Assembly: GCF_002278135.3 (NCBI RefSeq)
Contig: NZ_CP029425.2
Location: 5,556,001 to 5,620,000 of the forward strand
DNA length: 64,000 bases
Direction of reading: 5' to 3'
Source: Bradyrhizobium ottawaense
GTDB taxonomy: Bacteria; Pseudomonadota; Alphaproteobacteria; Rhizobiales; Xanthobacteraceae
Each line of letters starts with the position of its first letter. The stretch's first letter is position 1. The notes below the pieces were generated by a model that did no database searches, was not told where the DNA came from, and saw only the letters and a list, made by a program, of their open reading frames with translations. Below are positions 10,515 to 27,665 of the stretch, piece by piece. Position numbers and translations under genes: made by a program.

Positions 10515-10647
10515 GGTTTCGGGCCTCGGTATGACGTCAGTGGCACGTCACAGCGAACGAGGTCTCACCTTTTGGCCCTTCAGCCGTCCGATGAAGCCGA
10601 ATGTCTGTACTCCCCGACCGACATCTTCGCGTGTGACCACGGCTGAC

Positions 10648-10814
10648 GGCAGGTCTCCTGGCTCGCGGGTCATCACCACTTCGTCGCCTTCCCGGGACCG
10701 AGGACCCAGTGGCTTCTGACGAAGGATTATCCGCTCACAGTTGCGGGGGCAGCCACGGCGTTGGGGACAATGTCCCCGCACCGTATTCCCTTTTCATCCC
10801 CTCTCGGGGAAACC
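10648..10814 (-). promoter_or_regulatory. Cobalamin riboswitch 1, upstream of the TonB-dependent receptor
   Basis: On the minus strand the conserved blocks appear in order: GGTTTCC, AAAAGGGAA, CGGTGCGGGGAC, CCCGCAACTGTGAGCGG, the B12 box AGCCACTGGG (10705-10714), CGGGAAGGCG and GCGAGCCAGGAGACCTGCC. This matches the cobalamin riboswitch consensus closely. About 130 bases separate it from the receptor GTG, leaving room for an expression platform. High B12 should switch off the receptor and the PepSY gene. Confidence 0.95.
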
Positions 10815-10904
10815 GTCGCGAGCATCTAGGATTACCATCACAACAGAGTCAATGTGCCAGTTGCGGCGTTATGGCCACAACGACCAACTTCCTTGGAGAT
10901 GAGC

Positions 10905-13328: not shown

Positions 13329-14006
13329 TCAGGCCGCGTTGTGCAGGCGCGGGGTGACGAGGCCGGGCGCGGTGACGCCGCGCAGCGACTTCGCCAGTGC
13401 CAGCACCGCGAGATCGGCGAGCGGCTCGATCACGATGACGAGCGCATAGGACGCCGCGAACGTCGCGATGTTGGCGAGGTTGCTCATCGCAAAGCCCGAG
13501 CCATAGAGCGCCCAGAACGCCACCCAGGCGATCACGCCGGCCTGGTAGGTCGTCGAGAGCGCCAACGCCTGCCGATACTTCAAATCGACATAGGCGGTGT
13601 TGCGCGAGATGATCCGTGTGGCGATCGCCTGGATCGCGAACAGCGGCACCAGCAGCGTGGTGACGTTCATGCCGTATTGCGGGATGTCGGCCGGCTCGAA
13701 GAACACGCCCTGGAGCAGCAGACCGAAGGCAAGGCCGAACGCCGCCGGCGCCGCGCCGAACAGCAGGAACAGTGTCGAGCCGAGAATGAAGTGCACCTCG
13801 GAGACGCCGACCGGGAAGTGCGGCAGGATCTCGAAGAAAGTGAAGACGAGGACTGTGGTGGCCAGCGTCCGCGCCGCGAACGACGTGATGCCCTGCTCAC
13901 GCACGGTCTCGACCGCGAGCTTCAGCGCAACGCCGCCTGCGGCGATGCCGGTTGCGTAACTCAACACGAGCTTGGCGCCCGTCACGACCCCGGGTTCGAT
14001 ATGCAT
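13329..14006 (-). CDS. cbiM: CbiM-family ECF cobalt/nickel transport component
   Basis: A 225-aa integral membrane protein of the CbiM/NikM family, the substrate-binding component of energy-coupling-factor metal importers. The N-terminus MHIEPG matches the family's MHI start, where the N-terminal amine and His2 hold the metal. GVSEVHFILGSTLFLLFG, GLAFGLLLQGVFF and YGMNVTTLLVP are family segments; about six hydrophobic helices are visible. No cbiN, cbiQ or cbiO gene is found in the window, so it is solitary here. The leader carries cobalamin riboswitch 2, which supports cobalt as substrate; nickel is possible. Confidence 0.85.
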   Translation of the reverse strand: MHIEPGVVTGAKLVLSYATGIAAGGVALKLAVETVREQGITSFAARTLATTVLVFTFFEILPHFPVGVSEVHFILGSTLFLLFGAAPAAFGLAFGLLLQGVFFEPADIPQYGMNVTTLLVPLFAIQAIATRIISRNTAYVDLKYRQALALSTTYQAGVIAWVAFWALYGSGFAMSNLANIATFAASYALVIVIEPLADLAVLALAKSLRGVTAPGLVTPRLHNAA

Positions 14007-14059
14007 GGCTCAGTTCCTTCCTGCCGTCACACCCGACGGCCTTGGCCTCAAAACGTGCA

Positions 14060-14248
14060 GGGCCGGTCTCCTGGCTCGCGGTTCCCCGGGATTTCCGGCC
14101 TTCCCGGACCTTGCGGCCCAGTGGCTGATCGGAGTCCCTCACCGCTTACAGTCGCGGGGGCGGCTGGGGTTTTGGGCGCCGCAACTGGGTCCGCCCACCC
14201 CCATTCCCGATTATGCTCCGGCGCTTTGCGCCGCGTCGAGCACCATGC
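14060..14248 (-). promoter_or_regulatory. Cobalamin riboswitch 2, upstream of cbiM-cobF-cobT
   Basis: Minus-strand order: GGTGCTC, CGGGAATGGG, CCCCCGCGACTGTAAGCGG, the B12 box CAGCCACTGGGC (around 14116-14127), CCGGGAAGG and GCGAGCCAGGAGACCGGCC. It lies between the cobA stop and the cbiM start, about 54 bases before the cbiM ATG, so it controls cbiM-cobF-cobT separately from the upstream cobL-cobA genes. Confidence 0.95.
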
Positions 14249-14307
14249 CTCTCTTGTGTGCCCCTTTCGCTGAGCCTGCGTCAAGGGGCGAAGGGCGGCC
14301 AAGGCCG

Positions 14308-15039
14308 TCATGTGGGATAATCCCCCGCCAGCGCCCCAAACAGGATCACGGCGGCCGTCGAGGCGGCCCCGCCGCGCGCAAGCTGCTCGGCAAGCTCGGC
14401 GATGGTGGTGCGGACCAGCCGTTCGTCGGGGCGTCCGAGGGATTCGGCGAACAGCGCGGGGGTATCCGCAGCGAGCCCGTGCGCGATCAACTTTGCGGCA
14501 AGCGCCGGAAAGGTGCGCCGGCCCATATAGACCACGGTCGTCGCTTCCGGGTCGGCCAGTGCCCCCCAGTTCAGGTTAGGCGGCAACGCGCCGGTGACAT
14601 CAGCCCCGGTCACGAACTGCACCCGGCGCGAGGTATGGCGCCGGGTCAGGGGAATGCCGGCTTGCGCCGCGGCAACGCAGGCCGATGTCACGCCGGGAAC
14701 GATCTCGTAGCCGATGCCGGCCTCACGCAGCGTCTCAAGTTCTTCCTCGAGCCGGCCGAAAATGCCGGCGTCGCCCGACTTGAGCCGCACCACGCGTGCG
14801 CCTGTCGCCGCATAGTCGACCAGCAGGCGGTTGACGTGGTGCTGCTTGGTCGAGGGACGCCCTGCCCGTTTCCCCACCGCGACGAGATTGGCGCCTGGCC
14901 GGGCGAGATCGAGGATCGCGCCAGAGGCAAGATCGTCATAGAGCACGACGTCGGCTTCGCGCAGCCGCGCGGCGCCCTTGAGCGTGAGAAGCTCGGGGTC
15001 GCCGGGCCCGGCGGAGATGAAGGAGACGAATCCGCTCAC
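14308..15039 (-). CDS. cobA: Uroporphyrinogen-III C-methyltransferase
   Basis: This enzyme transfers two methyl groups from SAM to C2 and C7 of uroporphyrinogen III, giving precorrin-2, the entry to the corrin branch. The 243-aa length is that of monofunctional SUMT without CysG-type extra domains. Motifs: ISAGPGDPELLTLKG at the N-terminus, VRLKSGDAGIFGR, and EIVPGVTSACVAAAQAGIPLT. The GTG start overlaps the cobB stop (GTGA), making it the last gene of cobL-cobE-cobM-cobB-cobA. Confidence 0.96.
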   Translation of the reverse strand: MSGFVSFISAGPGDPELLTLKGAARLREADVVLYDDLASGAILDLARPGANLVAVGKRAGRPSTKQHHVNRLLVDYAATGARVVRLKSGDAGIFGRLEEELETLREAGIGYEIVPGVTSACVAAAQAGIPLTRRHTSRRVQFVTGADVTGALPPNLNWGALADPEATTVVYMGRRTFPALAAKLIAHGLAADTPALFAESLGRPDERLVRTTIAELAEQLARGGAASTAAVILFGALAGDYPT

Positions 15040-16346
15040 CGGTCCTCCGCGATCAGATGAAAGAAGGTGCCGGTGGCGTGGCCGCGCTGCGAGCCGGTCT
15101 CGGCGATGACTGCGCCAGTCGCATCATGCACGACCGCCAGCGGCGTATCAGGCTGGGCAAGAATGGTCGAATAGTGGAATTCGTGGCCGCGCAGGCGCGC
15201 GCCGGAGCGATGTCCCGGCATCGGCGCGGCGAGTTCGGCCAGACGATAACCGAGATGCATGCGGCGTTTGGCAAAGCTCGTCTCCAGGCCAAGCAGGCCT
15301 GTCATCTCGTGGCGGATTCCGTCCGCATCGGTCAAAGCGGTTCCCAGCACCATATAGCCCCCGCATTCGCCGTGCACCGGCCGCGTTTCGGCGAAGGCGC
15401 GCAGGCCGCTGCGAAAACGCGCATTGGCCGCGATCTTGCCGGCATGCAACTCGGGATAACCGCCGGGCAGCCAGCACACATCGGCGCTCGCGTCAGGCGC
15501 TTCATCGGAGAGCGGCGAGAATGTCGAGATCTCCGCGCCCGCCCGGCGCCAGGCTTCCAGCATATGCGGATAGACGAAGGAGAACGCCGCATCGCGGGCC
15601 AGCGCGATGCGCTGCCCCGGCGGTGTCACGTTCAGCCCATTCGCGGCAGGTTGCGGCGACCAGCTGGCAGCCGATCGCAGCACCGCATCGAGATCGACAT
15701 GCTCGGCGACGAAGCGCGCGGCCTCGTCGATCAGCTTGCCGATCTCGCCCTGCTCTTCGGCCTGCACCAGGCCGAGATGTCGCTTCGGCAGGCTGATCTC
15801 GGCATGACGCGGCAGCGCGCCGAACACGGCAATGCCGGAATCGTTGAGCGCACGCCGCACGAGGTCTTCGTGGCGCGGGCTGGCAACGCGGTTGAGCACG
15901 ACGCCCGCAAGGCGCACACCGGGGCGATAATCGCGAAGTCCCGCGGCGATCGCCGCCGCGGTCTGCGCCTGACCGGAAGGATCGATCACCAGCACCACCG
16001 GCCAGCCCAGCATCTCCGCAATGTCGGCGGTGGCACCGGTGCCGGAGACACCGCGCGCGGCGACGCCGTCGAACAGGCCCATCGATCCCTCGGCGAGCAC
16101 GACATCGGCGTCCGCGCCGCGGCTGACGAGATGGGCGATGCCCCCGCGGTCCATCGCCCAGCTATCGACGTTGACGGAAGCGCGCCCCGTGGCGGCGGCG
16201 TGGAAGGCGGGATCGATGTAATCGGGACCGCTCTTGAAGCACTGCACGTTCAATCCGCGATTGCGCCAGGCGCGCGCGAGCGCCAGCGTCAGCGTGGTCT
16301 TGCCGACGCCGGAAGCCGGCGCGGAGATGACGAAGCCTGCCGCCAT
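15036..16346 (-). CDS. cobB: Hydrogenobyrinic acid a,c-diamide synthase (glutamine-hydrolysing)
   Basis: A 436-aa ATP-dependent amidotransferase that amidates side chains a and c of hydrogenobyrinic acid. The N-terminal dethiobiotin-synthetase-like domain carries the P-loop SAPASGVGKTTL and FKSGPDYIDPAFH. The C-terminal class I glutaminase domain has the nucleophile in HGECGGYMVLG and the catalytic His region HEFHYST. ATG 16346 shares one base with the cobM stop (TGATG). The longer open frame upstream lies within cobM and has no family similarity. With CobN present, the aerobic hydrogenobyrinic-acid substrate is more likely than cobyrinic acid. Confidence 0.95.
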   Translation of the reverse strand: MAAGFVISAPASGVGKTTLTLALARAWRNRGLNVQCFKSGPDYIDPAFHAAATGRASVNVDSWAMDRGGIAHLVSRGADADVVLAEGSMGLFDGVAARGVSGTGATADIAEMLGWPVVLVIDPSGQAQTAAAIAAGLRDYRPGVRLAGVVLNRVASPRHEDLVRRALNDSGIAVFGALPRHAEISLPKRHLGLVQAEEQGEIGKLIDEAARFVAEHVDLDAVLRSAASWSPQPAANGLNVTPPGQRIALARDAAFSFVYPHMLEAWRRAGAEISTFSPLSDEAPDASADVCWLPGGYPELHAGKIAANARFRSGLRAFAETRPVHGECGGYMVLGTALTDADGIRHEMTGLLGLETSFAKRRMHLGYRLAELAAPMPGHRSGARLRGHEFHYSTILAQPDTPLAVVHDATGAVIAETGSQRGHATGTFFHLIAEDR

Positions 16347-17128
16347 CACGAGGCCTCCGGAAAGCGTGGCTCGGCACCGACAGGCCGATAGCGACGATCG
16401 TAGTCGGCGGCATAGAGGCGGCTCTCGTCGAAATCCGCAGCGCCAAGCGTTCTGCCGACCAGAATGATCGCGGTGCGCTCCATCTCGGTGCCGACGGCAG
16501 CATCGAGCGTAGCAAGCGTGGCGCGGACGATGCGCTGGTCCGGCCAGCTCGCGCGCCAGACGATGGCGACCGGGCAATCCGCGCCATAACGCGGCGCGAG
16601 CTCGGCGACGACCTTGTCGAGCAGATGGATCGACAGATGGATCGCAAGCACCGCACCGGTCGCGGCGAATGCGGCGAGCTTCTCGCGCTCGGGCATCGCA
16701 CTGGCGCGGCCGGGCGTGCGCGTCAGCACCACCGTCTGGGCGAGACCGGGCAGCGTCAGCTCAGCCTCCAGAGCGGCGGCGGCGGCGGAGAAGGACGGCA
16801 CGCCAGGCGTCACGGTGAAAGGGATACCGAGTGCGCGCAGGCGGCGGAGCTGCTCGCCCATCGCCGACCAGATCGAGAGATCGCCGGAATGCAGGCGAGC
16901 GACGTCCTTGCCTTCGGCATGCGCGGCGGCGATCTCCGCGATGATCTCGTCGAGCGATAGCGGCGCGGTATTGACGATGCGCGCGCCCGGCGGGCAATGC
17001 GCCAGCACGCCTTCGGGGACCAGTGAGCCCGCATAGAGGCAGACCGGACAGGCCGCGATCAGGTCGCGGCCGCGCAACGTCAGCAAATCGGGCGCGCCCG
17101 GCCCTGCCCCGATGAAATGCACCGTCAT
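16346..17128 (-). CDS. cobM: Precorrin-4 C11-methyltransferase
   Basis: A 260-aa tetrapyrrole methylase that methylates C11 of precorrin-4 to give precorrin-5. The N-terminus [56 protein letters not shown] and [14 protein letters not shown] are typical of CobM/CbiF. ATG 17128 overlaps the cobE stop (ATGA), and its own stop overlaps cobB. The start inside the longer frame is fixed by the family N-terminus. Confidence 0.95.
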
Positions 17129-17493
17129 GCGCCGTCTCCTTCCGCGATCGCGGCGGTCGCAGTGCGATCCCGCGAGACAACGCGTGTCGAGATCAGCCGT
17201 GCACGCGGCCCCGCCGCAGCGAGAGCTGCTGCTTCGGCGACCGATCCGATGCCGAACTTCTCCATCACGAGATTGGACCGGGTCGGCGTGGCTATCCTCG
17301 CCAACATGTCGGCCGGAACAGCCTTGATCGGCACGCCGCACTCAAGCGCGAGCTGCTTCAACGGCTCCGCGTCGGCCTTGTCGCTGACAGTTGCCATCGC
17401 AGTGAGGCCTTCGGGATCACCCGCAGCCAGCAGCGCTTCGCGCAGCGAAGCGAGAGTGACATCTCTCCTGAACCCAAACCCGGCCACCTTCAT
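17125..17493 (-). CDS. cobE: Cobalamin biosynthesis protein CobE (CbiG C-terminal-like)
   Basis: A 122-aa protein homologous to the C-terminal domain of CbiG. CobE is part of the aerobic cob gene set, with an incompletely defined role. [21 protein letters not shown] is the family N-terminus; [14 protein letters not shown] and [13 protein letters not shown] follow. The ATG at 17493 overlaps the cobL stop (ATGA), which decides it over an upstream ATG at 17508. It is coupled on both sides, to cobL and cobM. Confidence 0.88.
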
Positions 17494-18683
17494 CGGACCG
17501 TACTCCACTGCACCACCGGCCGTGCCGCCTCCCAGGACCGATAACGGCCGAGCGGGCCAGCATAAGCGATGTCGACCCGCATCAGCTCGCCGCCGTGGCG
17601 CTGGTGCAGATCGCCGAGCAACGCTTCCGTCTCCAATGTGACCGAATGTGCAACCAGCCGTGTGCCCGGTGCAAGCCGCGACCAGATTGCATCGAACATC
17701 GCGATGTCGAGACCGCCGCCGATGAAGACCGCATCCGGTGCGTCCAGCGCAGCGAGCACTTCAGGCGCTTTCCCCGTCACAATGGTGATCCGGTGCACGA
17801 GCCCGAACGCAGCGGCATTCTTGCGGATATTCGCGACGCGATCCTCGCGCGGCTCGATTGCGGTCGCCGTCCCGCCGCACAGCGCCCACTCGACCGAGAT
17901 CGACCCCGAACCGGCGCCGATATCCCACAGCCGTTCGCCCGGACGCGGCGCCAGCGCCGAGAGCGCGAGCGCACGCACCGGCCGCTTGGTGATCTGGCCG
18001 TCATGGACGAACAGATCGTCAGGACGCCCCGAGGCGTGGGGCATACCATGCGTGCCCTTCGCCTCAACGGCGACGGTGATCAGGTTTCCAGCGGGATCAC
18101 CGGCGAAACCGTCGGCGCGATGTTCTTGGATGCTTTCGCGCGGACCACCGAGTGCGGCGAGCGTCCAGAAGGCCGAGGCGCCCCATCCGCGCTCGCTCAA
18201 CCATTTTGCGAGATCGCTTGCCGCTTTCCCATCGCGCACGAGGCAGATGATGCGCGCCCCTCGCGCCAGATGCGGAACGAGACGTTCGAACGGTGCGGCG
18301 TGAAGCCCGAGGCAGACGGCGGATTCGAGCCGCCAGCCCAGCCGTGCGGCCGCAAGCGAGAAGGTCGACGGAGCGGAATGCGCGGTCCACTCGCCGGTCT
18401 GCAGCTTCTCGGCGAGACCAGCACCTGCGCCATGCCAGAACGGATCGCCGGAAGCGAGCACCACTGTCGGCCGGCCGCGGCTGCTCAGAACGACGTCGGC
18501 GTCGAACGGCACCGGCCACGGACGGCCGCGGCTGCCGACGCCGGCAAGCGCGAGATGCCGTGCACCACCGAAGACGGTTTCGGCCTCATTGAGCGCCTTT
18601 CGGCTTGCTTCGGACAGCCCGGCAAGGCCATCTTCGCCGATACCGATGATGGTCAGCCAGGGATCAGCCAAGGAATCAGCCAT
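17490..18683 (-). CDS. cobL: Precorrin-6Y C5,15-methyltransferase (decarboxylating)
   Basis: A bifunctional 397-aa enzyme that methylates C5 and C15 of precorrin-6B and decarboxylates the C12 acetate. The N-terminal CbiE-like domain starts at PWLTIIGIGEDGLAGLS, and the C-terminal CbiT-like domain carries the SAM motif LWDIGAGSGSISVEWAL near residue 245. ATG 18683 has GAGGG seven bases upstream. This start codon overlaps, on the other strand, the cobK start (shared CATG at 18681-18684), so any cobL-specific promoter would have to lie inside cobK. It begins the chain cobL-cobE-cobM-cobB-cobA. Confidence 0.95.
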   Translation of the reverse strand: MADSLADPWLTIIGIGEDGLAGLSEASRKALNEAETVFGGARHLALAGVGSRGRPWPVPFDADVVLSSRGRPTVVLASGDPFWHGAGAGLAEKLQTGEWTAHSAPSTFSLAAARLGWRLESAVCLGLHAAPFERLVPHLARGARIICLVRDGKAASDLAKWLSERGWGASAFWTLAALGGPRESIQEHRADGFAGDPAGNLITVAVEAKGTHGMPHASGRPDDLFVHDGQITKRPVRALALSALAPRPGERLWDIGAGSGSISVEWALCGGTATAIEPREDRVANIRKNAAAFGLVHRITIVTGKAPEVLAALDAPDAVFIGGGLDIAMFDAIWSRLAPGTRLVAHSVTLETEALLGDLHQRHGGELMRVDIAYAGPLGRYRSWEAARPVVQWSTVR

Positions 18684-19428
18684 GACGCGCGCCCTCATTC
18701 TGGGCGGAACTGCCGATGCGAGCCTGCTCGCCGCGGCGATCGCGCGCGCAGGCATCGAGGCCATCTATTCCTATGGCGGCCGCACCCGCGCGCCTGCGGA
18801 TCAGCCGCTGCCGACCCGCATCGGCGGCTTCGGCGGCGTGAGCGGGCTTGCCGACACCATCCGCAGCGAAGGCATTACGCATGTGATCGACGCGACGCAT
18901 CCTTTCGCTGCGGAGATGAGCCGCAATGCGGTCGAGGCGTGCGCGGAAACCGATACGCCGCTGATCGCGCTGGAGCGCGCGCCTTGGACCGGGATGTCCG
19001 GCGACAATTGGATTGAGGTCGCGAATGTCAGCGCCGCGGCCGCGGCGCTGCCCGAGCCGCCCGCAAACGTGTTCCTCGCCATCGGCCGCCAGCATATCGC
19101 GCCGTTCGCGACGAAGCCGCAGCATGCCTACACGCTGCGTTTCGTCGATCCGCCGGAATCGCCGCTGCCCTTCGCCGCCGATGTGATCGTGTCGCGTGGA
19201 CCGTTCACGTTGGACGGTGAATTGGAGATGATGCGCGAACGCGGCATCGGCTGGATCGTCGCCCGCAATTCCGGCGGCGATGGCGCGCGCGCCAAGATCG
19301 ACGCGGCCCGCTTGCTCGGCCTGCCCGTGCTCATGATCTCGCGGCCAAAGCTGCCCGAGCGGCTGCGGGTCGAGAGCGTGGCCGAGATCATGCAATGGCT
19401 CGGTCATTCTACCCGCCTCGGCGCATAG
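18682..19428 (+). CDS. cobK: Precorrin-6A reductase
   Basis: A 248-aa NADPH-dependent reductase that converts precorrin-6A to precorrin-6B. The N-terminus MTRALILGGTADASLLAAA, the DATHPFAAEMSRNAVEAC segment and IVARNSGGDGARAKIDAARLLGLPVLMI are CobK/CbiJ features. ATG 18682 has AAGGA about seven bases upstream. It is the only cob gene between riboswitches 2 and 3 on the plus strand: its start codon overlaps that of cobL, and its last 25 bases overlap the 3' end of cobJ. Promoter and any riboswitch are not visible; the upstream region is cobL coding sequence. Confidence 0.94.
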   Translation: MTRALILGGTADASLLAAAIARAGIEAIYSYGGRTRAPADQPLPTRIGGFGGVSGLADTIRSEGITHVIDATHPFAAEMSRNAVEACAETDTPLIALERAPWTGMSGDNWIEVANVSAAAAALPEPPANVFLAIGRQHIAPFATKPQHAYTLRFVDPPESPLPFAADVIVSRGPFTLDGELEMMRERGIGWIVARNSGGDGARAKIDAARLLGLPVLMISRPKLPERLRVESVAEIMQWLGHSTRLGA

Positions 19429-20138
19429 ACCCAGCGGCCGACGCGGCGCGTCTGCGAATTGCCGACGATCACCAGCGTGCGCATATCGGCCATCTCGGGC
19501 CGGGCTTCGTGCAGCGTGACAGTTTCGATCCTCTCGTCAGCTGTGCTGACCGCGCGCGCAAAAATCACGAGGCGCTCGCCGCAACCGGCGTCCTTCAGCA
19601 CCGCGAGCGCGCGGCCAAATCCTTCGGGCCGACTTGCGGAGCGCGGATTGTACATCGCAATCGAAAAATCAGCTTCGGCGGCGAGCCGCAGGCGCTTCTC
19701 GATGACTGCCCACGGCTTGAGATTGTCGGAGAGATTGATGGCGCAGAAATCATGGCCGAGCGGCGCGCCCGCGCGCGCGGCAGCTGCCAGCATCGCCGTG
19801 ATGCCAGGCAGCACGCGAATCGAAAGATTCCGCCATTGCGGCGCCTGTTCGAGCGCCTCAAACACGGCAGAGGCCATCGCGAAGACGCCGGGATCGCCGG
19901 AGGAGACGACGACGACCTGCCCGCCGTCTGCGGCAAGCCGCAGGGCTTCGCTCGCGCGCTGCAGCTCCTCGCGGTTATCCGAGGGATGCAGCTTGAGCCC
20001 AGCGCGCGCGGGCACGCGCGCGACATAGGGCGCATAGCCCAGAATATCGGTTGCGGAGGCCAGCGCAGCCGTGACCTCGGGCGTCACCAGAGCATCGCTG
20101 CCCGGCCCGAGGCCCGCGATGGTCAGCGTGCCCGTCAT
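19404..20138 (-). CDS. cobJ: Precorrin-3B C17-methyltransferase
   Basis: A 244-aa methylase that methylates C17 with ring contraction, giving precorrin-4. The N-terminus TLTIAGLGPGSDALVTPEV, VVSSGDPGVFAMA, LPGITAMLAAAARAGAPLGHDFCAINLSD and FSIAMYNPRSASRP are classic CobJ/CbiH signatures. ATG 20138 overlaps the cobI stop (ATGA). It is the last gene of the riboswitch-3 unit before the inverted cobK, whose 3' end it overlaps by 25 bases. Confidence 0.96.
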   Translation of the reverse strand: MTGTLTIAGLGPGSDALVTPEVTAALASATDILGYAPYVARVPARAGLKLHPSDNREELQRASEALRLAADGGQVVVVSSGDPGVFAMASAVFEALEQAPQWRNLSIRVLPGITAMLAAAARAGAPLGHDFCAINLSDNLKPWAVIEKRLRLAAEADFSIAMYNPRSASRPEGFGRALAVLKDAGCGERLVIFARAVSTADERIETVTLHEARPEMADMRTLVIVGNSQTRRVGRWVYAPRRVE

Positions 20139-20866
20139 TCGGCGGCGTCCAGGTGCCGGCCCTTGCCGTGTACCAGCACGATCGCGAAGTAAGGACAGTC
20201 GGCGCCGTCGACCTCGGCAAGCCGCACCACGCGCTCGCCCGCCATGGTGCCGCACTCGACCAGCCAGGCATCATCGAGCCGGCCGGCTGAGCTGAGCGCG
20301 CGGCGCACCTTTGCGAGATTGCGCCCGGTCTTCATGACGACAACCGCATCGGAATCGCGCATGCGCCGCTCGAGCTCGTCCTCGGCCAGCGTTCCCATCA
20401 GCACGGTCGTCACGTCATCGCCGAGCGCGATCGGCTGCCCGACGCCGTTCCAGCAGCCGACCATGCCGGGAATGCCCGCAATCACCTCGATCTCGACACG
20501 GCCCTGCAGGCGTATGTGCAGATGCATGAAGGAGCCGTAGAAATAAGGGTCGCCCTCGCAGAGCACGACGACGTCGACCGCGCGCGAAAGCCGCGCCAGA
20601 CGCTCCGCCCACTCGTCGTAGAAGCCCGCCAGCAGCTGCACGTACTCGGCGCTGTCGAAGGCGATCTCGGTGGTGACCGGATATTCCATGGGATATTCGG
20701 TGACATCGGCCGCCAGCATGCCCTCGACGATGCGCCGCGCCTGGCCCGGCCGGCCCTTCTTGCGGAAATAGGCGACGTGGCTTGCGGCGCGCACGGTGCG
20801 ATTGGCGCGCACGCTCATCAGATCAGGATCGCCAGGGCCGAGACCGCAGCAGATGATGCGCCCCAT
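20135..20866 (-). CDS. cobI: Precorrin-2 C20-methyltransferase
   Basis: A 243-aa SAM-dependent enzyme that methylates C20 of precorrin-2, giving precorrin-3A. Family features are the N-terminal IICCGLGPGDPDLMSVRA, VVLCEGDPYFYGSFMHL and IAGIPGMVGCWNGVGQPI, in agreement with CobI/CbiL. It starts two bases after the cobH stop and overlaps cobJ, within the tightly packed riboswitch-3 transcript. Confidence 0.95.
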   Translation of the reverse strand: MGRIICCGLGPGDPDLMSVRANRTVRAASHVAYFRKKGRPGQARRIVEGMLAADVTEYPMEYPVTTEIAFDSAEYVQLLAGFYDEWAERLARLSRAVDVVVLCEGDPYFYGSFMHLHIRLQGRVEIEVIAGIPGMVGCWNGVGQPIALGDDVTTVLMGTLAEDELERRMRDSDAVVVMKTGRNLAKVRRALSSAGRLDDAWLVECGTMAGERVVRLAEVDGADCPYFAIVLVHGKGRHLDAAE

Positions 20867-20868
20867 CG

Positions 20869-21498
20869 CTATTCGCTCCGGCTCGCCAAGGCGTTCACGG
20901 CGGCAACGGTAATCGCGGAACCGCCGAGGCGGCCCTCGACCGTCAGCGCCGGCGCCGGCGGATCGGCCATCAGCGCGGCCTTGGATTCGGCAGCGCCGAC
21001 GAATCCGACGGGACAGCCGATGATCGCCGCGGGCCGTGGGCAGTCACGGTTCTCCAGCATGTTGAGCAGATGAAACAGCGCGGTCGGCGCATTGCCGATC
21101 GCAACGATCGCACCATCGAGATGCGGCCGCCACAGCTCCAGCGCCGCGGCCGAACGCGTGTTGCGCATGGATTGCGCCAGCGCTGGAACGGCCTCGTCGC
21201 CGAGCGTGCAGATGACGGCATTGGCTGCCGGTAACCTCGCGCGCGTAATCCCTTCAGAGACCATGCGCGCATCGCACAGGATCGGCGCGCCTCGTTGCAG
21301 GGCGGCGCGCGCAGCGGTCGCCATGCCCTGCGTGAAGCGGATATGCGCCTCCAGGCCGACCATGCCGGCGGCATGGATCATCCGCACCACGATTTGTTCT
21401 TCGTCCGGCGTGAAGCGGGCAAGATCGGCCTCGGCGCGGATGGTCGCAAAGGACTGCCGGTAGATGGCCGCGCCGTCGGTCTCGTAAGTGTGCGGCAT
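20869..21498 (-). CDS. cobH: Precorrin-8X methylmutase
   Basis: A 209-aa isomerase that moves the C11 methyl group to C12, giving hydrogenobyrinic acid. The catalytic histidine lies in VVRMIHAAGMVGLEAHIRF (near residue 42). DARMVSEGI and IGNAPTALFHLLNML, followed by PAAIIGCPVGFVGAAESK, are family signatures. The start codon shares one base with the cobG stop (TGATG), pointing to coupled translation. Confidence 0.96.
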   Translation of the reverse strand: MPHTYETDGAAIYRQSFATIRAEADLARFTPDEEQIVVRMIHAAGMVGLEAHIRFTQGMATAARAALQRGAPILCDARMVSEGITRARLPAANAVICTLGDEAVPALAQSMRNTRSAAALELWRPHLDGAIVAIGNAPTALFHLLNMLENRDCPRPAAIIGCPVGFVGAAESKAALMADPPAPALTVEGRLGGSAITVAAVNALASRSE

Positions 21499-22661
21499 CA
21501 GTTTCCTCCCACGAGAATGGAGGGATCGCTGACGATGTCCGCGCCGTTCAGGCCGCGCAGCACCGGCTCGTCGCGGATCGAGCCGTCACGGACGAGATCG
21601 AAGCCGGCGCGGGTCGCCACCAGCGTGACCGCGGCCGTGCCGGAATGGGCACAGCCCTTGCCGCAGCCGGAGACGTGGAGCCGCGCATCGGAGGCGATGC
21701 GCGGGGCGAGCGCTGCTGCGAGCGCACGCGTATCGGCATGGGCTTCGCGGCAGCGCGGCGCGCCGCTGCAGGCGATGACGCGCAGCGCGGGATCAAAGGG
21801 CTCGGTGATCAGGCCCGGGGCGCTCGGCATCTCGCGCTCGCCTTCGCTCAGCACCATCCGCCAGGGCGTCATGCGCAGCGCATGTCCACAACCGGCGAAC
21901 TGATGCAGCGTCGTATGCAGCATCTGCCCGAACGCGACGCCGACCATCGCGCCTTGCGGATAGTGCCCGGGACGCGAGGCGGCCATCACGGGCGCGGGCT
22001 CGGTCTCGCCGCGCAGCGATTGAGGCAATGCCGCGCCGGACGCGATGTGGGCCGCCATGCGCCCTCGCCCGCCTGTCGCGCCGCCGGAGACCAGGAACCA
22101 GCTTGCGAGCGCGAGCGCCGTGCTCACGGCTTCTCCGCGTGCGACGGAGCGGCCCAGCTTTGCGCCATCGGCCCGCACCAGGAGACGGCCTGTGCGATCG
22201 CGCTCGATGCGGATGTCGGCGGAATCGCCGGCGAGCACGCGCGAGGTCCCGTCATCGATGGCGAAGCCGAATTTCGTTGGAAGCGCGAGCGAATTATCCT
22301 CGAGCGCTTCTTCCAGCTCGGCGGCAAGCGATTGTGTCGCGTCGCCAGCGCGCCAGAACGGCGTGACGAGGATGTTGCGACGGGCTTCCGTGGCCGGATC
22401 GGGATCGAGCAGCGCCAATCGTGCAAGGCCGTCGATCAACGGTCGATGGCCTGCTTCACTGACGCCCCTGATCTGCAGATTGGCGCGGCTCGTCACGTCG
22501 ATCAGACCATTGCCGTGTTGCCCGGCGAGCTCGGCAAGTCCGGAAATTTGCGGTGCTTCCAGCCGTCCACCGAACGGACGCACGCGCACCACGAGCCCGT
22601 CGCCCGAGAGCATCGGGCGCAGCGCGCCGGGACACCAGCCCTTGACCGTGGCCGCGCTCAT
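21498..22661 (-). CDS. cobG: Precorrin-3B synthase (oxygen-dependent)
   Basis: A 387-aa iron-sulfur monooxygenase that hydroxylates C20 and forms the gamma-lactone of precorrin-3B; it marks the aerobic pathway. It is related to sulfite/nitrite reductases: VTSRANLQIRG near residue 60 and a [4Fe-4S] motif of CSGAPRC (C-x5-C) followed by CGKGC (C-x3-C) near the C-terminus. ATG 22661 (MSAATVKGWCPGALRPM) overlaps the cobN stop (ATGA); the longer frame upstream is inside cobN. Confidence 0.93.
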   Translation of the reverse strand: MSAATVKGWCPGALRPMLSGDGLVVRVRPFGGRLEAPQISGLAELAGQHGNGLIDVTSRANLQIRGVSEAGHRPLIDGLARLALLDPDPATEARRNILVTPFWRAGDATQSLAAELEEALEDNSLALPTKFGFAIDDGTSRVLAGDSADIRIERDRTGRLLVRADGAKLGRSVARGEAVSTALALASWFLVSGGATGGRGRMAAHIASGAALPQSLRGETEPAPVMAASRPGHYPQGAMVGVAFGQMLHTTLHQFAGCGHALRMTPWRMVLSEGEREMPSAPGLITEPFDPALRVIACSGAPRCREAHADTRALAAALAPRIASDARLHVSGCGKGCAHSGTAAVTLVATRAGFDLVRDGSIRDEPVLRGLNGADIVSDPSILVGGN

Positions 22662-25600
22662 GAGGCCTCCCGCAGCGCCGCGGCGATCGAATTGCGGCGC
22701 GTTTGCCAAAGCGCCGCATCGTGCAGGCGCGCAAAACAGGTTTCCATCGCGGCGAGCGCCGACGGATTTTCACGCGCCATGAAAGCGCGGACGTCATCAT
22801 TGCCGAGCGTTGCATCGTAGTAGAGATCGAACAGATGCGGCGGCACGGTGCCGGCGAGATGCGCGAAAGCGGCCATGTGCTCCAGCGTCGCGGTGATTTC
22901 GGCGGCGCCGCGAAAGCCGTGACGCATCATGCCGGCGATCCAGGCCGGATTCGCGGCACGCGCACGGACGACACGCGCGATTTCCTCGGTCAGGGTGCGC
23001 GCATGCGGCTGCTCGGGACGCGTCGTGTCGAGGTGATAGAGCGCCGGCCCTGCCGCGCCGAGATGCGCGGCCGCGGCCGCAACGCCGGCTTCATGCGCGG
23101 CATAGTCGGCCGCGAGCAGCAGATCGGTCTCCGGCAAGTCCTGGACATGGACAAAGCCATCGGCCGCAGCGAGGCGCTGTTCGATGCCGGCGCGATTCGG
23201 CTGCATCTCGCCGTCGGCCGAGAACGCCCAGGACGATGCCGCCAGCCAGGCTTCACCGGCTGCCTCGCGGGTCTCCGGCGTGAAGGCATCAGGGATCGCG
23301 GATAGGCCCACGCCGTATTGTCCGGGGCGCGGCGCGAACACGCGGGAGGCGCGGTGGCGGTACGGATTCTCATCGCCCTCGTCCTCGCGCGCCGCAAGCG
23401 CTTCGGAGGCGGCCTCGAACAATTGCGCAAGGCCTGCGAAGACGTCGCGGAACAGGCCGGACACGCGCAGCGTCACGTCGATGCGGGGGCGGCCGAGCTC
23501 GGCCGGCGCGATGATGTCGTAACCGGTGACGCGGCCGGAGGCGTGATCCCAGCGCGGCGAAAGGCCGGCCAGATGCAGCGCCATCGCGAACTCCTCGCCC
23601 GCAGTGCGCATCGTTGCCGAACCCCAGAGATCGACGACGAGCCCCTTCGGCCAGTCGCCGTGATCCTGCAGATGGCGGCGCAGCAGCTCTTCGGCGAGTT
23701 TTATCCCCTGCGCATGTGCCGACGGCGTCGGCACGGAGCGCGGATCGACCGCAAAGAGATTGCGCCCGGTCGGCAGCACGTCTTGACGGCCGCGATAGGG
23801 CGAGCCCGACGGTCCCGGCGCAACGCGCTGGCCGGCAAGCGCGGCGCGCAGCGCTCCGCGCTCCGCCTCGCCGCAGGCGCCGCGGCCGAATACGTGCAGG
23901 CCGTCCCCGAATTGGCTTTCCTTGAGATCGCAGACGAAGCGATCAATCCGCGGAATGGCTTCGGCGGGCGCGGCCGAGGCATCCAAACCGAGATCGTCTT
24001 CGAGGCCTGCCACGCGCGCCTCGTCGCGGATCGCGGCAATCAGCCGTTGGCGGCGCGCGGGATCGAGACCATCAGCGGTCGAATATTCGTCGAGAAGTCG
24101 TTCGAGCCGGCGCAGGGCCTCCGGCACCGAGGATGTTTCCAGCGGCGGCGGCAGATGGCCGATGGTGACGGCGCCAATGCGCCGTTTCGCCTGCGCGGCC
24201 TCGCCGGGATCGTTGACGATGAAGGGATAGATGATTGGGAGATCGCCGATCAGGGCTTCCGGCCAGCAGTGCGATGACAGCGCCACGGATTTTCCGGGCA
24301 GCCATTCCAACGTGCCATGTGCGCCCATATGCACGACGGCATCGCAGGCCTGCTGCCGGAGCCAGAGATAGAACGCGACATAACCGTGGCGCGGCGTGCG
24401 GGCGAGATCGTGATAATCAATATCGCGCGTGGTCGCATCGCCGCGTTCCGGCTGAACCGCGATGATCGACTTGCCGCAAGCGACGGCCGCGAATTGAAAC
24501 ACGCCGTCCTGGCAGCTCGGATCATCCTCCGGCGCGCCCCAGGCTTGCGCGAGATCATCCTGCAAGACTTGCGGCAGGCGCGAAAGCGCCGCGCGGTAAT
24601 CGGCAACGTCCCAGGTCAGTTGCCGCTTGAGCAGCGTCTCGCCAAGGGTGTGGACCGGCGCAACATCGAAGCCGGCCTCCGCGAGATCCGACACCAGCGC
24701 CTCGACCGAAGCCAGCGCATCGAGACCGACCGCATGCGCGATCTGATGCGGCCGGCCCGGATAATTGGAGAGCACGAGCGCAATGCGCTTCTCGGCTGCT
24801 GGCTTCTCCGCGAGGCCCCGCCAAGCCGCGACGCGCGCGGCGACGGCCGTCACGCGCCCTTCATCGGCGCCGTGCGCAAGACGCGAAAATTGCAGATCGG
24901 GGTCACGCATCCCCGCCGATTTGAAGCTCACCACGCCCGCGAACAGGCGGCCATCGACCTCGGGCAGCACCACATGCATCGCAAGGTCGCCGGGCGACAG
25001 GCCGCGCAGCGAGTCCACCCAGTCCTCGCGCCGCGCGGTGGAGAGCGCGACCTGAAACACCGGGCAGGATGCGGCGTCGAATGGTGTCGTGCCGTCGTCG
25101 CCCATGGCCGAGAACGCCGTTGCATTGACGATCGCCGCCGGAGGATTTTGCGCAAGATACGCGCGCAGCCAATCCGCAACGCCCGCAGCCTTCAGCGACG
25201 TGACGAACGCGCCACAAGTGTCAAATCCCTTCTGACGCAACGTCGCGATCAGGGCATCGACCGGGCCGGTGTCGGCAGCGGTGAGATAGGAGCGATAGAA
25301 CGTCACCAGCGCGCGCGGCCTGCCCTCGCCGCCCACCGGCGCAGCAATGACACCACGCGCGGGATCGTAGAACCCCATCTCGGGCGCGGTCGTCTCGCCG
25401 ATAACTGGCCCGGCATAGAGGCCCGAGGCCAGCGCGAGCTGTGCAATCGCGGCCTGCGCCGCGACCGGGCCGCCGGTGTCGCAGAGCACCTTGAGCCGGC
25501 GCAGCGTCGAGACCGGCAAGGTCGAGTATGCATCGAGCCGCGTGTCGTCACGGCCATCGGCCGGTAGCACGGCCAGCACAATGCCACGGTCCTTCGCAAG

Positions 25601-25906
25601 CTGTTGCAGGGCCGCAAGCCCATACGGCCAGTAGGACTCCCCGCCGATCAACCGCACCAGAATGCCGCGCGCCTGCGACAGCGTGCGCTCGATATAGGTG
25701 TCGACCGACAGCGGATGACGCAGCTCAGCAAGGTTCGCGAGCCGCAGCGTCGGCAGGTTCTCGCGGCCACGCCGCCAGCCGGCTGCGAACGCCGCGAGAT
25801 CCGAATCCGAATACGAGAGCACCACGAGATCGGCCGGGTCCTGGCCGATATCCCTTGGCGTCGCGGTCTCCTCCAGACCGCGGCTCTCGCGGAAGACGAC
25901 GTGCAT
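22658..25906 (-). CDS. cobN: Cobaltochelatase subunit CobN
   Basis: The large subunit of the ATP-dependent aerobic cobaltochelatase, which inserts Co(II) into hydrogenobyrinic acid a,c-diamide together with CobS and CobT (chelatase subunits, not in this window). The 1082-aa product contains the conserved core HMGAHGTLEWLPGK (near residue 525) and IVNDPGEAAQAKRRIGAV. It appears shorter than the roughly 1270-residue Pseudomonas denitrificans protein. MHVVFRES is taken as the start because its ATG shares a base with the cobW stop (TGATG). Mg-chelatase H subunits are homologous, but the context settles the cobalt role. Confidence 0.95.
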   Translation of the reverse strand: MHVVFRESRGLEETATPRDIGQDPADLVVLSYSDSDLAAFAAGWRRGRENLPTLRLANLAELRHPLSVDTYIERTLSQARGILVRLIGGESYWPYGLAALQQLAKDRGIVLAVLPADGRDDTRLDAYSTLPVSTLRRLKVLCDTGGPVAAQAAIAQLALASGLYAGPVIGETTAPEMGFYDPARGVIAAPVGGEGRPRALVTFYRSYLTAADTGPVDALIATLRQKGFDTCGAFVTSLKAAGVADWLRAYLAQNPPAAIVNATAFSAMGDDGTTPFDAASCPVFQVALSTARREDWVDSLRGLSPGDLAMHVVLPEVDGRLFAGVVSFKSAGMRDPDLQFSRLAHGADEGRVTAVAARVAAWRGLAEKPAAEKRIALVLSNYPGRPHQIAHAVGLDALASVEALVSDLAEAGFDVAPVHTLGETLLKRQLTWDVADYRAALSRLPQVLQDDLAQAWGAPEDDPSCQDGVFQFAAVACGKSIIAVQPERGDATTRDIDYHDLARTPRHGYVAFYLWLRQQACDAVVHMGAHGTLEWLPGKSVALSSHCWPEALIGDLPIIYPFIVNDPGEAAQAKRRIGAVTIGHLPPPLETSSVPEALRRLERLLDEYSTADGLDPARRQRLIAAIRDEARVAGLEDDLGLDASAAPAEAIPRIDRFVCDLKESQFGDGLHVFGRGACGEAERGALRAALAGQRVAPGPSGSPYRGRQDVLPTGRNLFAVDPRSVPTPSAHAQGIKLAEELLRRHLQDHGDWPKGLVVDLWGSATMRTAGEEFAMALHLAGLSPRWDHASGRVTGYDIIAPAELGRPRIDVTLRVSGLFRDVFAGLAQLFEAASEALAAREDEGDENPYRHRASRVFAPRPGQYGVGLSAIPDAFTPETREAAGEAWLAASSWAFSADGEMQPNRAGIEQRLAAADGFVHVQDLPETDLLLAADYAAHEAGVAAAAAHLGAAGPALYHLDTTRPEQPHARTLTEEIARVVRARAANPAWIAGMMRHGFRGAAEITATLEHMAAFAHLAGTVPPHLFDLYYDATLGNDDVRAFMARENPSALAAMETCFARLHDAALWQTRRNSIAAALREAS

Positions 25907-26940
25907 CAGATACCTAGTCCTGCCTTGATGGCGGCCTCGTCGATATCGCCGTGCTCGCCGATCACGACGAGCTTCGACCGCCTGTGACCGGCACCCCACG
26001 GCTTGTCGAACTGGTGGCGCACGCGCTCGCCGACGGCCTGCAGCAGCAACCGCATCGGCTTGCCCGCGACCGCGATGTAACCCTTGGCCCGCAGCACGTT
26101 CTGCTCGCGTGCCAGCTTCTGGACGGATGCGACCAGCGCATCGACGTCGGCGACTTCAGGAAGGTCGACCACGACGGAGGCGAAGTCATCGTGCTCGTGC
26201 TCCTCCTCGCCGTCATGATGCGAGGGGCGCGCGGCGAGATCGTTCTCGGCGGCGGCGCCGAGACCGAGGATGACGCGCGCATCGATCGCGCCGTCGGTCA
26301 CGGGGAGCATCGGCACGCGGCGTGGCATCTCGGCAATAATCGCCGCCTTGGCCGCTTCAAGCCCCGCCGCGCCCGCAAGATCGGCCTTGGTCAGCAGCAC
26401 GATATCGGCGCAGGCGATCTGATCCTCGAACACCTCCGACAGCGGCGTCTCGTGATCGAGATTTTGGTCTGCCGCCCGCTGCGCTTCGACGGCATCAGGA
26501 TCCGGCGCAAAGCGGCCGGCGGCGACGGCCTCGGCATCGGCAAGTGCGATCACACCGTCGACGGTGATGCGCGAGCGGATCTCCGGCCAGTCGAACGCCT
26601 TCAGCAGCGGCTTCGGCAGCGCCAGGCCCGAGGTCTCGATCAGGATGTGATCGGGCCGCACGGGCCGCGCCAGCAGTTTTTCCATGGTCGGGATGAAATC
26701 GTCGGCGACCGTGCAGCAGATGCAGCCATTGGCGAGCTCGATGATGTTCTCCTCCGGGCAATTGGCATCGGCGCAGGATTTCAATATCTCGCCGTCGACG
26801 CCCTCACTGCCGAACTCGTTCACGAGCACCGCGAGCTTCTTGCCGCCGGCATTGCTGAGCAGATGCTGGATCAGCGTCGTCTTGCCGGAGCCGAGAAAAC
26901 CGGTGACCACCGTCACAGGGACTTTTGCGAGCGAGTTCAT
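25906..26940 (-). CDS. cobW: CobW-type GTPase (G3E metallochaperone)
   Basis: A 344-aa P-loop GTPase of the COG0523/G3E group, thought to deliver Co(II) towards the cobaltochelatase. The Walker A motif is GFLGSGKTTL (near residue 12), followed by the metal-binding CxCC motif in ELANGCICCTV and IETSGLALPKPLL. A His/Glu/Asp-rich stretch (HHDGEEEHEHDD, near residue 230) may bind metal. ATG 26940 overlaps the DUF1636 stop (ATGA). CobN lies immediately downstream, consistent with metal delivery to the chelatase. Confidence 0.95.
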   Translation of the reverse strand: MNSLAKVPVTVVTGFLGSGKTTLIQHLLSNAGGKKLAVLVNEFGSEGVDGEILKSCADANCPEENIIELANGCICCTVADDFIPTMEKLLARPVRPDHILIETSGLALPKPLLKAFDWPEIRSRITVDGVIALADAEAVAAGRFAPDPDAVEAQRAADQNLDHETPLSEVFEDQIACADIVLLTKADLAGAAGLEAAKAAIIAEMPRRVPMLPVTDGAIDARVILGLGAAAENDLAARPSHHDGEEEHEHDDFASVVVDLPEVADVDALVASVQKLAREQNVLRAKGYIAVAGKPMRLLLQAVGERVRHQFDKPWGAGHRRSKLVVIGEHGDIDEAAIKAGLGI

Positions 26941-27311
26941 TCGGCGGCCTCCGGCACGACGGCAATGGGGGGAATGCGGGCAAGCGATTGCTTGCGGAAT
27001 ATTTCCGGCCGGCTGCGCCAGGGCACGAGACCATCCGGCGCCGCCGCATAAGCCGCGGCGCCCGCGACCACATCCCGCGCATTCGCATCCGACAGGCGGC
27101 CATAGACATACGACCAGCGGCCGGGCGCGCTGAGCGCGACCGAGCAGCCCTGATTGCAGGCCGACAGGCATTCGACGGGAACCACATTGACGCCCTCGGG
27201 CACGCCGGCGTCGAGGATCGCCCCATGCAGGCGCTTGCCGGGCGTCGCCTCGCCCTCGCCAGGCGTCTCGCCGGCACGGCAGGTGATGCAGACGTGAAGT
27301 GTGACGGTCAT
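26937..27311 (-). CDS. DUF1636 family protein, possible metal or Fe-S binding
   Basis: A 124-aa protein that is the first gene after riboswitch 3. The cysteine arrangement (VCITCR near residue 8, then ECLSACNQGCSVAL near residue 47) resembles thioredoxin-like [2Fe-2S] ferredoxins and is the DUF1636 hallmark. ATG 27311 (MTVTLHVCITC) is preferred over a longer frame because the family begins there. It overlaps cobW and so is co-translated with the chelatase group. Its role is unknown; electron supply or metal sensing for cobalt insertion are guesses. Confidence 0.8.
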   Translation of the reverse strand: MTVTLHVCITCRAGETPGEGEATPGKRLHGAILDAGVPEGVNVVPVECLSACNQGCSVALSAPGRWSYVYGRLSDANARDVVAGAAAYAAAPDGLVPWRSRPEIFRKQSLARIPPIAVVPEAAE

Positions 27312-27422
27312 CGCCTCTTCCAGATAACAGCGGGAGGCGATGAGGCACACGGACCATTCTTCAGAAGGCCCGTTTCCCCGTCGCGGAACACCCCGTCCGC
27401 CGGTCCAAAACTCGTCCGCGCT

Positions 27423-27606
27423 GGCAGGTCTCCCGGCTTGCGGAGCAGGGTTTTGCCCTTCGATCCCCGCCTTCCCGATTCCCGCGGGAATCAGTGGCTT
27501 CGGGCATCTCTCCGGTCACGGTCGCGGGGGCGGCTGCATTTTGGACCCAAATCTTGCCGATTCGGACCCTATCGCATTCCCTCTTCGCCTGTCATAGGAC
27601 AGGAAC
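27423..27606 (-). promoter_or_regulatory. Cobalamin riboswitch 3, upstream of DUF1636-cobW-cobN-cobG-cobH-cobI-cobJ
   Basis: Minus-strand order: GGTTCC, AGAGGGAATGCG, CCCCCGCGACCGTGACCGG, the B12 box AAGCCACTGA (27491-27500 region), CGGGAAGGCGGGG and AAGCCGGGAGACCTGCC. The box has A instead of the usual G after ACTG. About 110 bases separate it from the DUF1636 ATG. The divergent cobO gene starts about 60 bases from its 5' end, so the two promoters share a very short region. Confidence 0.93.
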
Positions 27607-27665
27607 CAACGCCGGGCCACCATTTGCCGGTGGCCGCCACTTGTCAAGCCGAAGGACCGGGACCG

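Follow-up and report, generated by a model that had tools for sequence, protein, structure and literature searches.

We describe here an open reading frame (ORF), ORF X, which runs antisense to the precorrin-6A reductase gene cobK in the cobalamin gene cluster of Bradyrhizobium ottawaense. The window analysed is a stretch of 64,000 nucleotides (nt) covering positions 5556001-5620000 of an 8.59-Mb single-contig genome (NZ_CP029425.2). In this cluster cobK lies inverted between cobJ and cobL, and X fills the opposite strand from the cobJ stop to the cobL start; comparison with related loci strongly supports selection on the X frame. We propose that X is probably an ORF selected for being translated, encoded on the opposite strand of a pathway gene, which would let a riboswitch-led operon cross an inverted gene.

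The locus is tightly packed at both junctions. The cobK gene begins with ATG at 18682-18684 and ends with TAG at 19426-19428; cobJ ends on the minus strand at 19404, giving a 3' overlap with cobK of 25 nt (19404-19428), and the CATG at 18681-18684 is common to the cobK and cobL starts (cobL ATG, 18683-18681). A preliminary description of this DNA had noted that cobK fills the gap between cobJ and cobL, with the 25-nt overlap and the common CATG, and the coordinates confirm all three; it overlooked ORF X and the breadth over which the gene order is conserved. The ATG of X (19407-19405) overlaps the TGA stop of cobJ as ATGA, and its TGA stop (18678-18676) sits inside the start of cobL (ATGGCTGA). 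We place the cobJ start at 20138 from the conserved N-terminus, and we prefer 18683 to an alternative in-frame ATG at 18764 as the cobL start, since it appears to fit the conserved N-terminus better. The codons of X are in register with those of cobK on the opposite strand, and X can therefore be open only where cobK avoids TTA, CTA and TCA. As 0.7 antisense stops are expected in the X frame of the window, an open frame is unremarkable there by itself, and the evidence for X is thus comparative.

Loci for comparison were found by searching for CobK with TIGR00715 in four overlapping draws of genomes, at the level of class (matches in 69 of 193 genomes), order (124 of 149), family (56 of 119) and genus (56 of 61). 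From each draw up to 30 new loci, those with the best matches, were taken with 1.5 kb on each side, which gave 118 cobK loci including the window's own. In 81 of them cobJ, cobK and cobL occur together, and cobK is the antisense gene in the middle of all 81 (in one, L067, cobJ is about 1.3 kb away); the remaining 37 are without one or both neighbours inside the 1.5 kb, and one of these has cobK and cobL co-directional. A further 120 longer stretches, mostly of 19 kb, were chosen from the class and order matches; among the long loci, three with rare gene orders (L153, L190 and L191) also have cobK and cobL co-directional. Collapsing those with the same cobK stretch reduced the 239 loci (118, 120 and the window) to 180, comprising 109 with cobJ, cobK and cobL in succession at gaps below 600 nt (JKL loci) and 71 without this arrangement; together they form the first set. 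A hold-out of 80 named loci was collected after the hypothesis had been fixed, and one whose cobK equalled that of a first-set locus was removed. All 80 are JKL loci, which gives no measure of prevalence because the scan ranked candidates by similarity to the CobK of JKL loci. By record title the hold-out contains many Bradyrhizobium and Rhodobacterales, together with Acetobacter, Sphingomonas, Novosphingobium, Acidovorax, Delftia, Comamonas, Tepidicella and Halomonas. The cobJ-cobK-cobL order is old and conserved well beyond the Bradyrhizobiaceae, the family in which the preliminary description had proposed to compare it.

The number of TTA, CTA and TCA codons expected in each cobK was derived from the leucine and serine codon use of the other cob genes of the same locus; in short loci this expectation draws on few genes (cobJ, cobL and the rest of 3-4 kb). 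Inside X, none of these codons occurs in the first set against 92.4 expected (107 loci, two of low guanine-plus-cytosine (GC) content being set aside), and none occurs in the hold-out against 75.7 expected (76 loci, three of low GC set aside). Pooled, the 183 loci that keep X hold 0 stops against 168.1 expected, and they include eight with a cobK GC of 0.54-0.61 in each of which 1.6-4.7 stops are expected. With the low-GC exceptions kept, the counts inside X become 29 against 110.9 in the first set (107 of 109 loci open, 55.1 expected) and 35 against 115.3 in the hold-out (76 of 79 open, 36.3 expected). Over the compared stretch of cobK, all 109 JKL loci of the first set carry 30 such codons against 112.8 expected, 29 of them from the low-GC loci L214 and L236, and 106 loci are fully open against 54.6.

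The shortage is not one of A-ending codons at large. In the cobK of 107 JKL loci CTA occurs 0 times against 32.7 expected, TTA 0 against 17.9 and TCA once against 43.4, and the 11 other A-ending codons total 1741 against 1803.9; in all 80 hold-out loci the three stop complements total 38 against 119.8 and the other A-ending codons 1448 against 1619.3, a mild general shortage. The lone TCA (L230) and three single codons in the hold-out (L241, L278 and L291) are located ahead of the X start and hence not within X, and the cobK codons just outside that boundary carry 1 against 1.6 and 3 against 2.3 expected. Antisense to the neighbouring genes, stops are found at 128 against 135.1 (cobJ), 97 against 93.7 (cobM) and 301 against 238.0 (cobL). 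The scatter from gene to gene exceeds the binomial, with cobI (81 against 111.8) and cobW (63 against 89.1) low and cobL and cobG (157 against 125.4) high, and no control cob gene approaches zero. Codon bias as the source of X is ruled out by the other A-ending codons and these neighbouring genes. Where cobK is not between cobJ and cobL, 206 stops are found against 188.8 expected and 22 of 63 loci are open against 23.5 (63 of 70 scored); one locus in which cobL does not adjoin cobK (L152, short form L045) has three antisense stops at 70% GC with 0.7 expected.

The result holds when related sequences are collapsed. Among representatives at 65% CobK identity 70 of 73 are open against 34.0 expected, and at 55% identity 19 of 22 against 7.0 (the last 8 cobK codons omitted in both cases), the three that are not open being low-GC exceptions; in the first set alone 48 of 51 clusters are open against 24.5, the maximum of 20000 simulations being 36. 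Shared codon ancestry is a weak explanation, because mean divergence at 4-fold degenerate sites of cobK reaches 0.540 in the broad set. The other two antisense frames were considered as the translated one and rejected, both being stop-rich (637 and 546 stops over 109 loci). Relative to permuted synonymous codons one of them is low (637 against 782.6) and the other high (546 against 407.2); loci without the JKL arrangement shift likewise (546 against 589.6 and 298 against 254.5), and we therefore take these deviations as codon context.

X is also fixed in place relative to its neighbours. Its frame offset to cobJ is identical in 180 of the 183 loci that keep it, and a start codon in the X frame lies between -5 and +8 nt of the cobJ stop in all 183 (ATG in 151); the figure for another frame is 3 (ATG in none), a control that is not a fair match because the TGA stop itself creates start codons at -4 in the X frame. 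The start lies at -4 in 92 of 109 first-set loci. With the same caveat, X has the start overlapping or abutting an upstream stop that characterises a translationally coupled cistron. At the other end, 105 of 106 first-set loci have an ATG or GTG in the cobL frame near the X stop, the nearest being at -8 in 44 loci and -4 in 22, counts which are not a strict test given that the start was chosen as the nearest. More telling for the placement of X relative to cobJ, we consider, are the 13 loci in which cobJ and cobK are separated by a gap of 2-259 nt: in all 13 X begins no more than 4 nt from the cobJ stop and stays open through the gap, and at least one other frame is closed in 10 of them. In seven loci (L176, L145, L128, L150, L187, L066 and L082) the gaps are of 170-259 nt and look repeat-like by eye, and the open X frame gives X an N-terminal extension. 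In one further locus (L250) the cobJ frame extends 292 nt beyond the cobK stop position into cobK, probably through an assembly or frameshift problem in cobJ.

The start of X seems even to dictate a residue of CobK. The codon opposite it, His242 in the window, is histidine in 164 of 183 X loci, compared with 8 of 71 other CobK sequences (60 of them gapped there, in a C-terminal stretch whose alignment is uncertain in distant CobK) and one of the five low-GC exceptions. Of these 164 histidines 137 (84%) use CAT, a codon whose share in the rest of these genes is 0.56; a preference for ATG over GTG as the X start would produce such an excess.

Stop avoidance, conserved placement and the similarity of X across relatives would all be expected of a real gene encoding a functional protein wholly antisense to cobK, of the kind claimed for a few Escherichia coli antisense overlapping genes. 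We regard this as unlikely. At codons where the CobK residue is unchanged, X identity is 0.697 against 0.508 expected (ratio 1.37), close to the ratios for the antisense of cobJ (0.670 against 0.501; 1.34) and cobL (0.626 against 0.463; 1.35). Divergence at 4-fold sites of cobK falls within or close to the span covered by its neighbours, both in 52 broad loci (cobK 0.540, cobI 0.513, cobJ 0.554 and cobL 0.556) and in 32 Bradyrhizobium-type loci (cobK 0.352, cobI 0.357 from 31 loci, cobJ 0.383 and cobL 0.443). Because synonymous sites of cobK thus vary much like those of its neighbours and the identity ratio resembles the controls, the amino-acid sequence of X appears to be under little or no constraint of its own. 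Of the two marks of an antisense protein-coding gene, an open frame maintained by selection is present here and an amino-acid sequence maintained by selection seems absent. The extensions of X where cobJ and cobK are apart look repeat-derived by eye, the window's X has no Pfam or NCBIfam match, and AlphaFold2 with a 20-row X alignment predicted no fold (predicted local distance difference test score 35.7, predicted template modelling score 0.10). Divergence, family searches and fold prediction therefore leave X unsupported as a conserved protein. Among 7989 scored candidates sharing most words, X has 49 matches to database proteins; a precomputed Pfam domain is on record for two of them (PF01609 in one, PF02571 in the other) and for none of the remaining 47, and the seven with a source name are hypothetical proteins. 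The annotation of some genomes and metagenomes thus lists X as a protein, unnamed or hypothetical (P0004-P0052), and cobK may be absent from some of those annotations.

A second alternative, in which cobL has its promoter inside antisense cobK and X arises incidentally from the codon use of GC-rich DNA, strikes us as highly improbable. In GC-rich genes an antisense frame in register is frequently open, as it is in 55 of 109 cobJ genes over the compared stretch, and five low-GC JKL loci persist without X. The expectation used here, however, already comes from codon use at the same locus and still sets 168.1 stops against none in the 183 loci; codon use leaves the X frame kept through the gaps between cobJ and cobK, in 13 of 13 cases, unexplained; and no sigma-70-like promoter was found in 17300-20400 (0.3 expected by chance) in a search confined to that promoter type. 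The preliminary description had posed a choice between a promoter within cobK and read-through from cobJ; read-through is favoured, in that the strand is kept translatable and no cobalamin riboswitch was found between cobJ and cobL in 55 long JKL loci. It is likewise very unlikely that the antisense stretch is untranslated and serves mainly to regulate cobK reciprocally through RNase III and colliding polymerases, as the layout of the Staphylococcus aureus menE-menC-MW1733-ytkD operon would suggest (PMC7154746), since stops in one frame would not then be avoided; reciprocal regulation could operate beside translation of X.

Several observations count against a translated X that carries the operon across cobK. 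Five JKL loci (L214, L236, L313, L316 and L317) are without X, and they were set aside after their loss of the frame had been seen. Their antisense stops number 16 in L214 (cobK GC 38%), 13 in L236 (45%) and 11-12 in each of the other three (locus GC 42-43%), the lowest GC among X-keeping loci being 0.52. The K-L gap of L214 is AT-rich and about 124 nt long; L236 and L313 have no such gap. These losses indicate that the bridge is dispensable at low GC, where the loci may have another promoter or weaker Rho action. The start test is partly built in, for cobJ ends in TGA in 171 of 183 loci and any preceding A, G or T then makes a start codon at -4; a Shine-Dalgarno-like motif precedes X in 71 of 106 loci, a count made without a chance control. 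Of the four genes compared in the Bradyrhizobium-type loci, cobK is by a small margin the least diverged at 4-fold sites. Five loci with an open cobK antisense, in which cobJ or cobL is missing beside cobK (L209, L225, L084, L085 and L067) had 0.0-1.3 stops expected. Finally, 14 of the 55 long JKL loci are without a riboswitch in the fetched stretch, and an additional cobL promoter inside cobK is compatible with the sequence and may exist.

Selection for translation itself is the best explanation of X, because the frame spans the distance from cobJ stop to cobL start and is kept where cobK separates these genes, with little or no constraint on its sequence. We read with good confidence the order cobW-N-G-H-I-J-X-L-E-M-B-A as one riboswitch-led mRNA that translation of X carries across cobK. 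The minus-strand B12 genes would form a single polycistronic unit headed by the riboswitch at 27406-27625, and its mRNA between cobJ and cobL would be complementary to cobK. Ribosomes ending cobJ would restart at the overlapping ATGA start of X, translate the stop-free frame across the antisense stretch, stop inside the cobL start and perhaps restart on cobL; the selected feature would be the act of translating X rather than the X protein, and cobK would have a plus-strand mRNA of its own. RNA that is left untranslated is exposed to Rho. Translation of X could cover the mRNA against Rho termination, keep a ribosome trailing RNA polymerase when it collides with transcription of cobK, and hand ribosomes on to cobL. 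Conservation of the frame implies translation of the antisense stretch; read-through, translation of X and the benefit that matters among these (Rho, collision or coupling) are what we infer from this pattern.

The aptamer that the preliminary description numbered riboswitch-3 is recovered by RF00174 (Table 1), upstream of the cobW-to-cobJ block and on the same strand, as in a cobalamin riboswitch operon, and the window has no RF00174 match between cobJ and cobL. Among the 55 long JKL loci a same-strand cobalamin riboswitch lies upstream of the cobJ block in 37 and downstream of cobL in four, and none lies between cobJ and cobK or between cobK and cobL; a riboswitch of cobL's own is rejected on these loci. 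The counts were made with an nhmmer profile built on the 10 aptamers that Rfam recovers from the window and 14 loci; the profile was also blank in the 9 of the 14 loci where Rfam was blank. A terminator-like site was found within cobJ only (19579-19567, minus; 1 against 1.8 by chance), and a search for C-rich, Rho-site-like RNA particular to antisense cobK found none. The main text of an RNA-sequencing study of Gluconobacter oxydans (PMC5756330) makes no mention of cobJ, cobK or cobL.

Table 1. Features of the cobalamin locus in the window. Coordinates of cobW, cobN, cobG, cobH and cobI (the 20135-27000 block) are those of the ORFs used for searching, with starts unmapped.
Feature	Coordinates	Strand	Basis or remark
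ORF X, proposed translation bridge	18676-19407	-	243 codons plus TGA; opposite nearly all of cobK
cobK (precorrin-6A reductase)	18682-19428	+	PF02571, E=5.5e-70; NF005968
cobJ (precorrin-3B C17-methyltransferase)	19404-20138	-	TIGR01466 over cut-off
cobL (precorrin-6Y C5,15-methyltransferase, CbiE + CbiT)	17490-18683	-	TIGR02467 and TIGR02469 over cut-off
Cobalamin riboswitch aptamer heading the cobW-to-cobJ block	27406-27625	-	RF00174, 101.1 bits
cobW	25906-27000	-	NCBIfam over cut-off
cobN	22658-25909	-	NCBIfam over cut-off
cobG	21498-22709	-	NCBIfam over cut-off
cobH	20869-21498	-	NCBIfam over cut-off
cobI	20135-20866	-	NCBIfam over cut-off
cobE	up to about 17493	-	no NCBIfam match; named by position alone
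cobM	16346-17128	-	NCBIfam over cut-off
cobB	15036-16349	-	NCBIfam over cut-off
cobA	14308-15039	-	NCBIfam over cut-off

Downstream of cobL the block cobE-M-B-A spans 14308-17493 on the minus strand. Two further cobalamin riboswitches lie on this strand, one at 10631-10832 ahead of a TonB-dependent receptor-like ORF (8166-10514) and one at 14044-14262 ahead of a CbtA-like ORF (13329-14006), both ORFs being named by eye. The other main cluster type, in which H-L-I-J-M are followed by cobK and then A-B, was considered as a second case of a bridge and rejected: cobK is not sandwiched there, and its antisense stops are at expectation (83 against 76.7 in 20 loci). In eight of nine inspected loci of this type (L205, L207, L231, L168, L142, L218, L210 and L188) a CbiD-like ORF, recognised by eye without a family search, lies upstream of cobK on the same strand, which suggests a separate cbiD-cobK unit; in the ninth (L195) the longest ORF is on the other strand, and a 370-codon ORF is present on the cobK strand.

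A translated X would offer a testable answer to the question of how an operon passes an oppositely oriented gene without losing its downstream part to Rho or to polymerase collision. Functional antisense ORFs are disputed in the field, and the loci that keep X provide a clean sequence signal (0 against about 168 stops) that such a frame is translated. The opposite strand would set some of the codon choices of cobK, and perhaps a residue of CobK, and changes in cobK could reduce the output of cobL-E-M-B-A without altering CobK. If the arrangement is general, operons interrupted by an inverted gene should be recognisable by missing antisense stops in one frame. We found no description of X, of a translated bridge or of any such element in the open-licence literature searched; most subscription papers lie outside that search.

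The arrangement may have left a trace in the history of the pathway: papers of 1990-1992 on Pseudomonas denitrificans reportedly placed cobK at first in the same direction as cobJ and cobL and then reversed this assignment, and the first 'cobK' may have been X. Termination-reinitiation coupling occurs at ATGA overlaps, and X resembles such cases in starting at -4 of the cobJ stop (92 of 109 loci) and in having the nearest cobL-frame start mostly at -8 or -4 of its own stop; it differs in that the middle cistron is an antisense frame and not a known protein. In the noncontiguous operon of S. aureus, menE-menC-MW1733-ytkD-MW1731 (Saenz-Lahoya et al. 2019, as reviewed in PMC7154746), the antisense stretch is described by the review as an internal untranslated region, a property of that example and not of noncontiguous operons by definition. 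The likeness to Staphylococcus drawn in the preliminary description holds for the layout, an inner gene opposite to both its flanks (in the window as in all 81 loci with the three genes) within a run proposed as one transcript, so that both RNAs would be complementary over that gene; it probably does not extend to the antisense stretch, which here holds a conserved stop-free frame adjoining both neighbours. As with pop, antisense to ompA (PMC7103648), X is a long, probably translated ORF lying antisense within an annotated gene; unlike that class of overlapping genes, it seems to have little or no amino-acid constraint in addition to that on cobK, and its start follows the adjacent gene of the operon.

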